64,000 nucleotides of DNA from Rhabdophis nuchalis (lineage: Eukaryota; Chordata; Lepidosauria; Squamata; Natricidae): assembly GCA_039707465.1 (NCBI GenBank), contig CM077651.1, forward strand, positions 19,041,519 to 19,105,518. The letters are read 5' to 3'. The notes below the pieces were generated by a model, which was given only the letters and a program-made list of their open reading frames with translations, was not told the origin of the DNA and did no database searches. The number at the start of each line of letters is the position of its first letter. Within the stretch, counting starts at the first letter, position 1. Shown here in pieces: positions 54-61,672 of this stretch. The position numbers and the translations under genes are program-made.

Positions 54-1230
<1,177 letters not shown>

Positions 1231-1379
1231 TTCTCTCCTAGGGAGAAAAGAAAAAAAAATTCTGCTGCTGCATACTCCACATAGGCATCAGGAAGGGCAT
1301 CAGGTCAGTAAATGCTCAGCTCCATCCAGTCGCTCAAACTCTACCCCAAATTAAGGGAGCACTGAGTGTTAAAAAGATA
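1231..1379. other. Possible LINE 3'-end scrap, unclassified
   Basis: The stretch around 1285-1310 (AGGAAGGGCATC followed by a GTAAA-type block) resembles the end of some non-LTR retrotransposons, but it is too short to classify. The remainder shows nothing. Confidence 0.25.
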
Positions 1380-17825: not shown

Positions 17826-18070
17826 AATCTATATCTGTATCTATATCTATATCTATATCTAGATTATATCTATATCTATATCTATATCTATATCTATATC
17901 TATATCTATATCTATATCTATATCTATATCGAGATCGAGATCGAGATCTAGAGATATAGAGATATAGAGATATAGAGATATAGATATAGATATAGATATA
18001 GATATAGATATAGATATAGATATAGATATAGATATAGATATAGATATAGATATAGATATAGATATAGATA
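17826..18070. repeat. Inverted hexamer microsatellite (ATATCT)n / (AGATAT)n
   Basis: The left half (17826-17930) is ATATCT repeated, the right half (17951-18070) its reverse complement, with a GAGATC-rich centre. The whole 245 bp can fold into one hairpin. It abuts the retrozyme-like locus 2. Confidence 0.9.
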
Positions 18071-18658
18071 ATTGTTTTCACAACATCCTGCTAGGGCCCC
18101 ATTAAGGGAGGAGACATACTGTTTCCTTTTCTGCCTTTCGGCTCATCACCAGAGACCATCTAGACAGAAAACCAAGAGTTCTGTTGTGTACATTTTTTAG
18201 ATATGTGTGTTAGTTTTATGAGCTGATCAATAAATAAATCAGAGAGACCAGGATAGATCTATTTCGAGCTTATTAGCTCTCATCAGCTGGCCATACCCTT
18301 TAGTGGGACTCAAACCGGGGCTGTATTGCATATCAGGCAGGAGCCTAGCAATTCAGCCAAGCCGGCTCTCCCTTATTGTATCAGCTGAGATGGGGTATTT
18401 AGTATAGGTAATTGTTTTCACAACATCCTGTTAAGGGGCCCCAATTAAGGGAGGAGATATACTGTTTTCTTTCCTGCCTTTCGGCTCATCACCAAAGATC
18501 ATCTAGACAGAAAGCCAAGAGTTCCGTTGTGTAATTTTTTTTAGATATGTGTGTTAGTTTTATGAGCTGATCAATAAATAATTGGGGCCTCTTAACAGGA
18601 TGTTGTGGAAAAAATTACCTATACTAAATACCCCTGTTTCAGCTGATGCAATAAGGGA
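18069..18658 (-). mobile_element. Retrozyme-like tandem repeat, locus 2
   Basis: Part A (18071-18210), part B with the ribozyme (18220-18408) and a second A (18411-18560) are in tandem; the repeat period is 340 bp, measured between the two ATTGTTTTCACAACATCCTG blocks at 18071 and 18411. A truncated second B (to 18580) is followed by an inverted copy of 18369-18446. On the minus strand B has A box TGGCTGAATTG (18349-18359) and B box GGTTTGAGTCC (18306-18316), then the hammerhead 13 bases on. No protein is encoded. The element must depend on another retrotransposon for mobility. Confidence 0.75.
18246..18292 (-). ncRNA. Hammerhead ribozyme, type I, copy 2
   Basis: Minus strand. Stem I: GGCCAG (18287-18292) with CTGGTC (18246-18251). 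Core box CTGATGA at 18280-18286. Stem II at 18266-18279: GAGCT with AGCTC, AATA loop. Core GAAA at 18262-18265. Stem III TAGATCTA at 18254-18261. Cleavage is expected after the C at 18252. Relative to copy 1, stem II pair 2 is A-U instead of G-C and stem III has A/T instead of G/C at its matching positions, and core position 7 differs. All other bases are the same. Confidence 0.9.
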
Positions 18659-22163: not shown

Positions 22164-22298
22164 CAGGGGTCTGCAAAGTTGGCTCTTTGAAGACCGGTGG
22201 ACTTCAGCTCCCAGAATGCCCCAGCCAGCTATGCTGGCTGGGGAATTCTGGGAGTTGAAGTCCACCGGTCTTCAAAGAGCCGACTTTGCAGACCCCTG
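22164..22298. mobile_element. Palindromic hAT MITE, intact TSD
   Basis: 135 bp, almost a perfect palindrome: CAGGGGTCTGCAAAG at the left and CTTTGCAGACCCCTG at the right, centre CCAGC/GCTGG. Flanked by identical 8-bp repeats CCTTAGAC (22156-22163, 22299-22306). Same family as 28553 and 57569. Confidence 0.95.
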
Positions 22299-28552: not shown

Positions 28553-28687
28553 CAGGGGTCCCCAACCTTTGCAACTTTAAGTCTGAAGGACTTCAGCTCC
28601 CAGACTTCTCCAGCCAGCTTTGCTGGCTGGAGAATTCTGGGAGCTGAAGTCCTTCAGACTTAAAGTTGCAAAGGTTGGAGACCCCTG
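28553..28687. mobile_element. Palindromic hAT MITE, intact TSD
   Basis: 135 bp with ends CAGGGGTCCCCAACC and GTTGGAGACCCCTG, near-perfect palindrome. Identical 8-bp flanks TTTTAGAA (28545-28552, 28688-28695). Confidence 0.95.
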
Positions 28688-30150: not shown

Positions 30151-31040
30151 TTTTTTATTATTTAAATTTCTATACCGCCCTTCTCCCTTCCGGGACTCAG
30201 GGCCGTGTACAGGCAGCAATAAAATCAATGATAAAAAATACATGAAATATATATTTTAAAATGTATTAAATAATACGCCTGTACTAAAACCATTAATGAA
30301 ACCTACTAAAACCATTTAAAAATTATGCCAGGCCGGCCGCACGAAATAAATAGGTCTTCAAAGCCCGACGGAAGAGGCGCAGGTCTGTGGTCGTGTGTAG
30401 TTTGGTGGGTAGGTCATTCCAGAGGGCAGGAGCTGCCACAGAGAAGGCTCTCCCCCTGGGGGTCACCAGCCAACATTGCCTGGCCGACGGCACCCTGAGG
30501 AGGCCCTCTCCGTGGGAGCGCACTGGTCGGTGGGAGGTATTTGATGGCAGGAGGCGGTTTTGCAGGTAACCAGATCCCTTGCCATGGGGCGCTTTAAAGG
30601 TAGTTACTAATACCCTGAAGCGCACCCGGAAAGCCACAGGCAGCCAGTGCAGCTTGCGCAGGAGAGGTGTCACATGGGAGCATCTAGGAGCTCCCAGGAT
30701 CCCCCGCACAGCCGCATTCTGAACTAACTGGAGCCTCTGGGTGCACTTCAAGGGAAGCCCCATGTACAGAGCATTGCAGTAGTCCAGGCAGGAGATGACG
30801 AGGGCTTGAGTGACCGTGCGTAAAACATCACAATCCAGAAAGGGGTGCAACTGGCGTATCAGGCGAACCTGTTAAAAGGCCCCCCCTGGCCATGGCTGTC
30901 ATATGATCTTCTAGCGACAGCTGAGAGTCCTGGAGGATGCCCAAGTTGCGAGCCCTCTCTGTGGGGGCCAAAGACTCGCCCCCAATAGCCAGAGCTGGCA
31001 CCAACTGGCTATATCGTGCCACCGGAAGCGACCATGCTGT
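30150..31040 (-). mobile_element. L2-type LINE, 3' half-kilobase of ORF2 and UTR
   Basis: Minus-strand copy with the TTTCTATACCGCCCTTCTCC tail block (30168-30187), a 175-codon open frame 30323-30850 (CLDYCNALYMGLP, KLHWLPVAFRVRF, PALWNDLPT) and an upstream part in another frame (30828-31049), so at least one frameshift. 5'-truncated near 31040. Confidence 0.85.
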
Positions 31041-45847: not shown

Positions 45848-46495
45848 TTTTTTTTAAATCATATTTATATCCCGCCCTTCTCCACGAAGGACCCACGGCG
45901 GCGCACAGGAATTTAAAAAACATACAAAACGATAAATACAAAATTTAAAAACATATTAAATTACAATCCTATGTTAAAACCAAATTAAAATCCCCAGTTT
46001 AAAACTATCTAAAATAGCCTGGACGGGAGGTTAGGCTAGGCCGGCTTGCTGAAAAAGATGTGTCCTTAGACACTGGCAGAAGAGGCGGAGGTCCGAGATG
46101 GTACGCAATTCCGGGGGTAGGTCGTTCCAAAGGGCTGGGCCCGCCACAGAGAAGGCTCTTCCCCTGGGTGTCACCAGTCGGCATTGCCCGGCCGACGGCA
46201 CCCTGAGAAGGCCCTCTCTGTGGGAGCGGATCGGCCGAAGGGATGTATGGGGCAGGAGACGGTCTCGCATATAACTAGGCCCCGAGCCATGGAGCGCTTT
46301 AAAGATGGTCGTCAGAACCTTGAAGCGCACCCGAAAGGCCACAGGAAGCCAGTGCAGCTCGCGCAGGATGGGTGTTATATGGGAGCATCTAGAGGCTCCC
46401 GTAATCACCCGCGCGGCTGCATTCTGGACTAATTGTAGTTTTCGAGTGCACCTCAAGGGAAGCCCCATGTAGAGAGCATTACAGTAGTCGAGTCT
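45848..46495 (-). mobile_element. L2-type LINE, 3' end with open frame
   Basis: Minus-strand copy: tail block ATATCCCGCCCTTCTCC at 45867, 3' UTR, then an open 157-codon frame 46031-46504 (RLDYCNALYMGLP, RELHWLPVAFRVRFK, PALWNDLPPEL, FQQAGLA). Truncated at about 46495, where a different sequence begins. Closest in the window to the copy at 60768. Confidence 0.9.
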
Positions 46496-46496
46496 C

Positions 46497-46830
46497 CACC
46501 GCAAATTTATCCACCACAGATTTATTGCTGATCATTAGTTAGCCAGATTCTTGTGCATAGGCTTCAATAAATTGTTTATAGTGCAGCCTACACAAATAGT
46601 CCTGATTCTTCATGTCTGATGATATGGCAGGAAGCTGAGAGCAGGCCATGCTTAATTAAAGCAGGATCAGTGCATGTTTTACTCTGCAGCCCACAGCTTT
46701 TATACCCAAAGCAAAGTCATCACATTACTGAGTGACTTGGACTCTGAATGGTGTTATGAATTTGTTATGAAGTTTATTATGTAATAAGACTACATCATCC
46801 ATTGTGGTTGAAGCAGTTGTTCTTTAGAAT
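46497..46830 (-). mobile_element. Possible LTR
   Basis: On the minus strand, GGGTATAAAAGCTGTGGGC (TATA box, plus 46687-46705) is followed about 165 bases on by CAGCAATAAATC (plus 46521-46532), an LTR-like promoter-to-poly(A) order. Ends and target duplication were not found. Confidence 0.3.
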
Positions 46831-53547: not shown

Positions 53548-53791
53548 TTATATGTGCCCTTATTTTTTGGCAATTGTCTCTGGTGGTTTAAAAAGAAAAA
53601 AAATGCAGAAAGATTGAAGATACTGTTTAGCCCAATTTCACAAAATAAGCTTGCATGATACTTAAAACTAAAGGGGAAAAAAAGAACCTTAATCTTGAGA
53701 AGGAATCTAAAGAAAATGAAATTACGAAAAATGTATATACCGGTACAAAAATATTGTACTGAGGAAACAAAGGTGAATTGTTGCATATATT

Positions 53792-54307
53792 ATGCAGAAT
53801 CGTTTAGCTCTTGATGACTTATTGGCAAAAGAAGGGGGAGTATGTGATAAATTTAATTTGACTAATTGCTGTATTGAAATTGATGATAGTGGAAAAGTCA
53901 TTCAGGAAATATCAGAAAAAATGGTAAAAATTGCTAATGTGCCTGTACAAACATGGCATGGTTTAAATTTGAAAGAAATGTTTGGTTCATGGTTTCCAAA
54001 ATTACCCGGTTTGCAAGCTATTGTAGCTTTAATTGGTATGATTGCTTTAGGATGTATTGTTTTACCTTGTGTTTTGCCTATTTTTGCTCGTGCAATTTCT
54101 AATAGCTTATCTTTGTTTGCTGAGAAACGAGCTATAGCTCACATCAATGCTTTGTGGGAACAGAAGTATGCTCCTGAGCCCCAGGGAGACCCCCTGGAGA
54201 AGAAACCGTTAACCCTGGGCAGTGACGAGGAGGAAGAGGTAATTGTCAAACACCAAATCAAACCCCCCCTCAGGCTGCTGTATTGTGACGAAGACCATCT
54301 TTTTTGA
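53792..54307 (+). pseudogene. env: Retroviral env, transmembrane-subunit fragment
   Basis: A 171-codon frame, open to its natural stop, carries the C-terminal part of a class I retroviral envelope. Visible in order: an NR-A-LD-LL-like immunosuppressive-domain segment (residues 2-13), GGVC followed by CC after seven residues (a CX7CC, where CX6CC is usual), an ectodomain tail with a tryptophan-rich WHGL stretch (about 50-70), a membrane span (about 73-95), and a long acidic cytoplasmic tail with DEEEE near residue 146. Just upstream lies an in-frame stop in host flank (53774-53776), so the surface subunit, signal peptide and fusion peptide are absent. With the 5' LTR also deleted, expression is unlikely; a membrane-fusion role is not possible for this fragment. 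Confidence 0.85.
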
Positions 54308-60767: not shown

Positions 60768-61672
60768 GAGTGGCTGTGGTTTCCGGCACCCCGGTTCAGC
60801 CAGATTACTCCAACTCTGGCCATTGGGGGCGAACACCGGCCCCCGTGGAGAGGGCGCGCAATTTGGGTGTCCTCCTGGATTCCCGGCTGTCCATGGAGGA
60901 CCATGTGGCGGCCGTGGCCAGGGGGGCATTTCATCAGGTACGCCTGATGCGCCAATTGCGCCCCTTACTGGACCGGGCTGCCCTTCGCACAGTCACTCAG
61001 GCCCTCGTGACATCCCAACTGGACTACTGCAATGCTCTCTACATGGGACTTCCCTTGAGGTGCACTCGAAAGCTACAGCTAGTCCAGAATGCAGCCGCGC
61101 GGGTGATTACGGGAGCCCCCAGATGCTCCCACATAACACCGATCCTGCGCGAGCTGCACTGGCTTCCTGTGGTCTTTCGGGTGCGCTTCAAGGTCTTGAC
61201 GACCATCTTCAAAGCGCTCCATGGCTCGGGGCCTAGTTATATGCGAGACCGTCTCCTGCCCCATACATCCCTTAGACCGATACGCTCCCACAGAGAGGGC
61301 CTTCTCAGAGTGCCATTGGCCGGACAATGCCGGCTGGCGACACCCAGGGGAAGGGCCTTCTCTGTGGCGGGCCCAGCCCTTTGGAACGACTTACCCTCTG
61401 AACTCCGCACTATCACCGACCTCCGCCTCTTCTGCCGGTGTTTAAAAACACACTTATTTCATCAAGCCGGCCTAACATAGCCTCCGCTGGGACAAATATT
61501 AGACAGTTTTAAATGGGGGATTTTAATTTGGTTTTAGCGCAGGTTTTGTCATTTAATAGGTTTTTTAAATTATATTTGGTGCTATTTTGTATGTTGTTTT
61601 AAATTCCTGTGCGCCGCCCTGGGTCCTCTCGGAGAAGGGCAGGATATAAATTGAATAAATATTAATAATGTC
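60768..61672 (+). mobile_element. L2-type LINE nested in a hAT element
   Basis: 5'-truncated L2 with the ORF2 C-terminus, a 3' UTR with GTGCGCCGCCCTGGGTCC and the end GGCAGGATATAAATTGAATA. It inserted into the hAT and so is younger than it. Confidence 0.9.
60770..61480 (+). pseudogene. C-terminal fragment of L2-type LINE ORF2, best preserved
   Basis: A 236-codon frame without stop or frameshift. In order it shows LGVLLDSRLSMEDHV, QLDYCNALYMGLP, LQLVQNAAARVITG, RELHWLPVVFRVRFK, RPIRSHREGLLRVP and PALWNDLPSEL, ending LFHQAGL. These are the post-palm region of L2/CR1-group reverse transcriptases. The start methionine is internal; the palm motifs and endonuclease are missing. The lack of lesions over 700 bases indicates recent activity of this family. 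Confidence 0.85.

Follow-up and report, generated by a model that had tools for sequence, protein, structure and literature searches.

What does a complete hammerhead ribozyme do in a dispersed repeat, and how did that repeat reach the places where it now lies? The question arises from a 64-kb stretch of DNA (the window, 64,000 nucleotides in full), for which the original prediction had placed two such ribozymes on the minus strand, at 18246-18292 and 1424-1470. Our answer, to which we give a probability of about 0.74 as one joint claim, is that the repeat is a non-autonomous, retrozyme-like element of ~340 nt with a tRNA-related head and a Penelope-type insertion cycle, whose RNA the hammerhead processes. 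The earlier interpretation is supported in part; it did not include the tandem, retrozyme-like nature of the unit, the insertion of two arms head-to-head at 18056-18658, a dimeric geometry or a link to Penelope-like elements (PLEs).

The ribozymes of the window and their repeat unit

The coordinates, core residues and stems I-III of both hammerheads were predicted correctly, as was their strand. Each possesses the complete type I core (CUGANGA, GAAA, UH) and three stems (Table 1); the bounds 18246-18292 take in two further pairs of stem I, G-U and G-C, beyond 18248-18290. The subfamily A copy consists of stem I CCAG/CUGG, CUGAUGA, stem II GAGC/GCUC, GAAA and the stem III palindrome UAGAUCUA, and by hammerhead convention its cut is predicted between 18252 and 18251 (minus). 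In the subfamily B copy we find CUGAAGA, stem II GGGC/GCCC and the palindrome UGGAUCCA, with a predicted cut between 1430 and 1429 (minus). The two 43-mers differ at exactly the five positions that had been described, namely N7 and two complementary double changes, one affecting both sides of stem II pair 2 and the other both sides of stem III pair 3.

A search with covariance models, which had been suggested as a check, gave a divided result. Rfam Hammerhead_HH9 (RF02275) spans the full model in both copies, with scores of 31.9 and 31.0 bits and E values, in the 64-kb window, of 4e-4 (18248-18290) and 8e-4 (1426-1468). These scores, like the best one in four other loci (35.2 bits), do not reach the curated cut-off of 52 bits, and a default Rfam scan of the window therefore reports no hammerhead.

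Table 1. Features in and beside the two element copies of the window
Feature	Position	Strand	Basis or remark
Type I hammerhead, subfamily A	18248-18290	minus	letters, Rfam match, stem-pair check
Second type I hammerhead, subfamily B	1426-1468	minus	letters, Rfam match, stem-pair check
(AGATAT/TATATC)n microsatellite	17952-18070		adjoins 3' (sense) end of element
tRNA-related head	18303-18373 (bounds by eye)	minus	letters; family-wide box statistics; tRNA-Ala alignments of six other units
Body downstream of cleavage site	18056-18251	minus	ends near s2 in (TATATC)n microsatellite
Body of preceding, 5'-truncated unit, same arm	18374-18581	minus	segment mapping
Inverted second arm, head-to-head with 18056-18581	18583-18658	plus	segment mapping
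Element copy around second hammerhead	1382-1741	minus	ends near s1 in short TA stretch

The window element at 18056-18658 is a single head-to-head insertion. Its minus-strand arm, 526 nt in length, exceeds one unit and has its 3' end at unit position 195, near one of two preferred sites, s2 (defined below), while the plus-strand arm has its 3' end at unit position 224, which is neither preferred site. Within the window head lie an A-box-like TGGCTGAATTGC (18348-18359, minus) and a B-box-like GGTTTGAGTCC (18306-18316, minus). An inverted repeat at 18419-18607 resembles MIR8565 in Rfam (E 0.11); the reading as a hairpin or miRNA was rejected because the repeat spans the head-to-head junction. 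Near-perfect inverted repeats elsewhere in the window, at 22190-22272 and 28579-28661, have sub-cut-off miRNA matches on both strands (mir-5408, mir-3160) and are likely to be MITE-like foldback elements. By eye, the related ORFs at 508-1287 (-), 30323-30871 (-), 46031-46531 (-) and 60770-61480 (+) resemble a LINE reverse transcriptase in its C-terminal portion, and an ORF of 176 aa at 53777-54307 (+) resembles a retroviral envelope protein in its membrane portion.

Six units measured from cut to cut are 337-349 nt long, and among the first 100 places with an exact subfamily A match (exact-A places) there are six same-strand neighbours 325-348 bp apart. The order within the unit is a tRNA-related head with pol III boxes, the hammerhead and the body. 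A B box with at most one mismatch occurs in 81 of the 99 aligned rows (of 181) that hold enough upstream element, as compared with 0.3% of mononucleotide shuffles, and in 92 of the 99 the ribozyme follows the best match at a distance of 24-28 nt. The signal of the A box is less strong: 63/99 rows match it with one mismatch or none, versus about 20% of shuffles. Six units were scored against a tRNA-Ala comparison sequence and against 2000 shuffles. Their scores range from 26 to 56; three of the six (A_L010, C_L017 and C_L021) exceed all shuffles, and for the others the score was reached by 1/2000 (B_L001), 3/2000 (A_L011) and, at worst, 32/2000 (A_L003). ARAGORN detected no tRNA in the window or in 27 loci, and a search with Rfam tRNA at E up to 5 found none in four loci. 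The description of the repeat as pol III-type is thus supported by the B box and by three of the six units, without confirmation from ARAGORN or Rfam tRNA.

The element shares with tRNA-derived SINEs the tRNA-related head with A and B boxes, and with metazoan non-LTR retrozymes a unit in the range of 150-450 bp, dimers to multimers and a type I hammerhead. No coding region like that of the Anolis Poseidon element PAc was seen in the 340-nt unit. By analogy, it would work as though a tRNA SINE had been joined to a metazoan non-LTR retrozyme.

Stem III comprises three pairs closed by GATC, too weak a stem to hold alone. An isolated 83-nt strand folds otherwise: the hammerhead is not its optimum, and shuffled sequences fold as well as it does (z -0.33). 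A longer stretch of the window copy, 340 nt, has a more stable fold than 99 of 100 shuffles (z -2.77). For two copies folded together the optimum is a double hammerhead with one extra stem II pair (-35.0 and -43.2 kcal/mol for the window variants) and a 10-bp palindromic stem III, a kind of dimer that any palindrome favours. The central GATC remains G-C in 171 and A-T in 177 of the 181 rows, and loop 2 varies. This predicted geometry fits that of the dimeric ribozymes reported from axolotl (PMC7229834).

Copy number and covariation

The genome searched, plausibly that of a snake, comprises 1.918 Gb in 348 contigs, and all genome-wide repeat counts are lower bounds. With up to three mismatches the 43-nt ribozyme motif has at least 8,440 matches (4119 + 4321) and its reversed control none; for a 21-nt body pattern, up to one mismatch being allowed, there are at least 10,809, and its reversed control again gives 0. 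The hammerhead belongs to an interspersed family of thousands of copies. The exact ribozyme pattern is absent from the viral and prokaryote contigs searched. At 84129376-84152904 on contig C5, seven same-strand ribozyme copies with a common A/C mismatch in stem II lie at spacings that are mostly near multiples of 1,038 bp (three units), which is probably a satellite-like array.

Our sample consists of 73 DNA pieces, all except the window on contig C1. Besides the window it includes the first 8 matches of the 43-nt list, 19 regions picked from the same list with a preference for neighbouring matches (copies side by side are therefore overstated; a twentieth region, L009, coincided with the window and was left out), 25 of the first 30 body-pattern matches (L035, L036, L038, L039 and L056 were dropped as overlapping) and 20 further regions along the body-pattern list. 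Hammerhead-like rows with up to seven substitutions, a filter that itself favours likeness to the motif, numbered 203, of which 181 were kept after the removal of overlapping loci.

The full core and all 11 stem pairs are found in 107 of the 181 rows, and 74 are not intact; 43 rows are exact subfamily A copies from L001-L028, loci that the search had chosen for such copies, and of the other 138 rows 64 are intact. Two-sided, pair-preserving changes occur at six of the 11 stem pairs (I.1, I.3, II.1, II.2, II.3 and III.3), while N7 is free (T 134, A 37, C 9, G 1). Covariation in stems II and III, for which an alignment of genomic copies had been proposed, is therefore present in pairs 1, 2 and 3 of the former and pair 3 of the latter. 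For the seven motifs that each occur in at least three loci, standard pairs make up 100% at the 11 stem pairs versus 12-34% with slid partners, and there are 10 two-sided cells versus 0. When all 90 distinct rows are taken, decayed ones included, 91.2% of cells pair versus 16-35% with slid partners, and two-sided cells number 84 versus 8-18; the count of stem pairs showing such changes, 5, does not exceed that of the slid versions (1-5). Stem II pair 2 is G-C in 43 of the sampled rows, and exact matches genome-wide give 15,906 copies with A-U against 84 with A/C and 93 with G/U. Uncompensated copies, the finding that was to have spoken against a working fold, are thus a small minority.

Judged from these alignments, conservation of a working fold, with two-sided changes in stems I, II and III across several subfamilies, is well supported. 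It is a property of the source elements; individual copies decay. In five comparisons of units from subfamily A with units from B or C, 38 of 45 positions of the hammerhead region are identical, the differences being paired changes, loop 2 and N7, and the remainder of the unit is at 56-61%. Cutting therefore seems to matter to the element. At cleavage position 17, A replaces C in 21 of the 181 rows, among them in L007, and some of these rows have stem I CUAG/CUAG; A at this position is tolerated by hammerheads.

Insertion signature and Penelope-like elements

We mapped 226 element segments onto the unit, in which position 1 is the first base after the cut. Two sites, s1 (44-70) and s2 (179-206), were delimited after a first histogram from 28 pieces. 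In the 73 pieces, 180 of 221 3' ends fall at s1 (80) or s2 (100), compared with 19 of 223 5' ends at the same places; s1 lies about 48 and s2 about 195 nt after the cut, a distance of about 146 nt. The cleavage site itself accounts for only 3/221 3' ends. Simple repeats of 10 bp or more adjoin 152/221 3' ends versus 29/223 5' ends. A LINE-type single 3' end was rejected in view of the two internal sites. The 5' ends in the sampled loci peak at unit positions 10-39, 130-149, 270-289 and 330-339, perhaps in structured regions, for example the T arm.

Adjacent segments are arranged head-to-head (-+) in 58 cases, tail-to-tail (+-) in 13 and in the same direction in 13 (++ 10, -- 3); the 45 loci taken in body-pattern list order contribute 31 of the 58 head-to-head pairs. 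Where both arms end at a defined site (n = 34), the pair is s1/s2 in 31 cases, s2/s2 in three and never s1/s1, a proportion reached by 0 of 100,000 permutations and found alike in the list-order loci (19/20) and in the remaining loci (12/14). The other 24 of the 58 pairs, the window's included, have an arm at neither site. In 55 of the 58 the arms belong to the same subfamily (random mean 36.9, maximum 45). Of 81 s1-ended segments, 70 continue through the cleavage site, and 62 of the 226 segments are longer than 341 nt, with a maximum of 1314; the template was therefore circular or an uncut multimer. Two internal starts of reverse transcription, extension at both ends and a simple-repeat or AT-rich target are features of mobilisation by a Penelope element, which the copies display as a genomic signature only.

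Pieces of a PLE are present in the same loci. One matches reverse transcriptase (RVT_1) with 31.3 bits, above the cut-off, in a degenerate copy, and another matches GIY-YIG with 21.6 bits, just below the cut-off of 22.6; they are located on opposite strands of two neighbouring loci, and no intact PLE helper was found. The minimal hammerhead of this PLE has at least 3,436 genome matches and, by eye, overlaps a start codon as in Anolis Poseidon. PLE 3' ends (n = 51) fall at two sites 28 nt apart, t1 (22) and t2 (24), with five elsewhere; t2 is the end of the PLE query, and run-on copies would for that reason also count there. A simple repeat follows 20 of the 24 t2 ends and 17 of the 22 t1 ends (37/46). 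Eight of nine classified head-to-head pairs are t1/t2, and in the first 100 PLE places adjacent ribozymes no more than 500 bp apart (n = 24) are head-to-head in 20 cases and tail-to-tail in one. The PLE shows a two-site, head-to-head pattern like that of the element. Among the matches listed, 8 of 65 exact-A places lie within 2 kb of a PLE place (random mean 0.2, maximum 4), which a shared target preference would explain. By eye, the letters CTCAnAAAAC recur at s1 and t2, and ACCTA at s2 and t1, weakly so in subfamilies B and C; this likeness is only a lead.

Biochemical data exist for the Anolis Poseidon protein, which initiates reverse transcription internally, at two sites, cuts both strands and extends them, and favours AT-rich DNA (PMC11167929). 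According to the same source, the Anolis PLE inserts unprocessed RNA in vitro, and ribozyme mutants leave insertion unchanged.

From these data we surmise the following cycle. Pol III would start at the tRNA-derived A and B boxes, or another polymerase would read through, giving an RNA of one or more units. Two hammerheads with weak stems III would pair through the palindrome, in the geometry of the co-fold optimum, and cut after AUC, as reported for axolotl. The RNA, of one or several units and perhaps closed into a circle by a host ligase, may then bind a Penelope-like protein. This protein would break microsatellite DNA, and both DNA ends would prime reverse transcription at s1 and s2, one site per end; joining of the two cDNAs at variable 5' ends would yield head-to-head inserts. 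The insertion pattern of this last step is seen as a genomic signature in the sample, and a Penelope-like enzyme is suggested by the like signature of the PLE. We would give even odds to a stronger version, in which the amniote tRNA-headed retrozyme is an obligate Penelope satellite that carries both reverse transcription start signals, one RNA templating both sides of a break in a microsatellite with one start site per DNA end. If true, this would be a bidirectional target-primed mechanism that explains the tandem and inverted structure of retrozymes and PLEs.

Competing explanations and known systems

An ordinary tRNA-derived SINE moved by a LINE, with an incidental hammerhead and with dimers and inversions that stem from twin priming and later recombination, would have the head with A and B boxes, the simple repeats next to 3' ends and the LINE reverse transcriptase-like ORFs of the window in its favour. 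We consider it unlikely, given two internal 3' sites, mostly one per arm, in place of a single 3' end, segments that cross the unit boundary and a PLE with the like two-site, head-to-head pattern. More plausible, and still doubtful, is a cycle without circular RNA, in which uncut multimers of the RNA serve as template and the action of the hammerhead is confined to transcripts. The uncut junction is present in genomic copies, and the insertion of unprocessed RNA by the Anolis PLE, indifferent to ribozyme mutants, agrees with it (PMC11167929). Against it stand the ribozyme kept in a unit that has otherwise diverged, where cutting seems to matter, and the abundant circles formed by related retrozymes (PMC7229834).

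Satellite DNA spread by unequal exchange, with the hammerhead as a relic, could account for tandem spacing near one unit and for the array on contig C5; it is highly improbable in the face of thousands of genome matches, of sampled copies with defined 3' ends and microsatellite flanks, and of two-sided changes kept in several subfamilies. Still less credible is chance or shared descent with a fold that is not under selection. The original prediction rested on two copies, and the rows that are not intact would suit such a view, which has against it the six stem pairs with two-sided changes, the free N7, the low slid controls and the genome counts at stem II pair 2. A chance fold was rejected on the genome matches of the 43-nt motif and the slid-partner controls, and chance or descent is very unlikely for the family, although individual old copies are broken. 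The earlier preference for selection or inheritance of a working fold over chance has thus been borne out, by covariation in several subfamilies and by the motif's genome-wide abundance against the reversed control. The reading of the hammerhead as processing ribozyme of a Penelope-type, tRNA-headed element has points against it as well, namely that in vitro the Anolis PLE does not need its ribozyme for insertion (PMC11167929), the sub-cut-off Rfam scores, the lack of a model-called tRNA, the fold of the isolated strand, the tally of stem pairs over all 90 distinct rows, the degenerate PLE pieces, the position of t2 at the query end, and the head-to-head pairs that have an arm at neither site or are s2/s2.

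PLEs have been proposed as the movers of retrozymes on the basis of shared features and co-occurrence (PMC7229834). Since the sampled insertions share PLE-like two-site junctions and match PLE biochemistry in vitro, the question of which enzyme moves metazoan retrozymes becomes directly testable, and one purified protein and one 340-nt RNA make up the test system. With this family the range of high-copy retrozyme-like elements reaches a probable amniote, a possible internal promoter is added to them, and a comparison becomes available for intronic hammerheads such as HH9, whose domestication has been proposed.

The view that hammerheads in a pol III-type repeat of a snake are not well described holds for squamates in the open-access papers searched, but a tRNA-related SINE with a hammerhead is known in schistosomes (PMC2770079). 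A search of the open-access literature for hammerhead ribozymes together with squamates gave no paper; a named entry may exist in Repbase or in subscription papers. The main text of a paper on squamate SINE satellites (PMC10702118) does not contain the words "hammerhead", "ribozyme" or "Penelope". As vertebrate retrozymes, PMC7229834 names those of axolotl and other amphibians, and "reptil" and "lizard" do not occur in its main text. The two-site bidirectional signature is the surprising part; the combination of tRNA SINE and hammerhead has a precedent in Sm-alpha.

Among known systems, the metazoan non-LTR retrozymes, especially the 330/350-bp repeats of axolotl, also have a type I hammerhead whose stem III is short and whose tetraloop is palindromic, and like our element they occur as units of 170-400 nt, dimers and multimers in high copy number, with PLEs in the same genome (PMC7229834). 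The two-site head-to-head signature of the element is not among the retrozyme features taken from that paper. A review describes retrozymes as seemingly without promoters (PMC7761336), unlike the element with its tRNA-related head. The Schistosoma repeats Sm-alpha and Sj-alpha are likewise tRNA-related SINEs with a type I hammerhead and very high copy number; compared by description, their head is tRNA-Gln-like and their host an invertebrate, whereas the element's head is tRNA-Ala-like (PMC2770079). For the intronic HH9 hammerheads of amniotes, RF02275 being the best-scoring Rfam family for both window copies though below cut-off, domestication from a retroelement ribozyme has been proposed, with reference to Xenopus repeats (PMC6155905, PMC3088659); they exist in few copies at conserved intronic positions, from which the element differs by its thousands of matches. 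The insertion signature has its counterpart in Anolis Poseidon PAc, in which reverse transcription starts internally at two sites, both strands are cut and extended, the target is AT-rich and a hammerhead lies near the start sites. As an autonomous element PAc has an ORF together with a minimal hammerhead (PMC11167929), while ours is non-autonomous and has its two sites ~146 nt apart.
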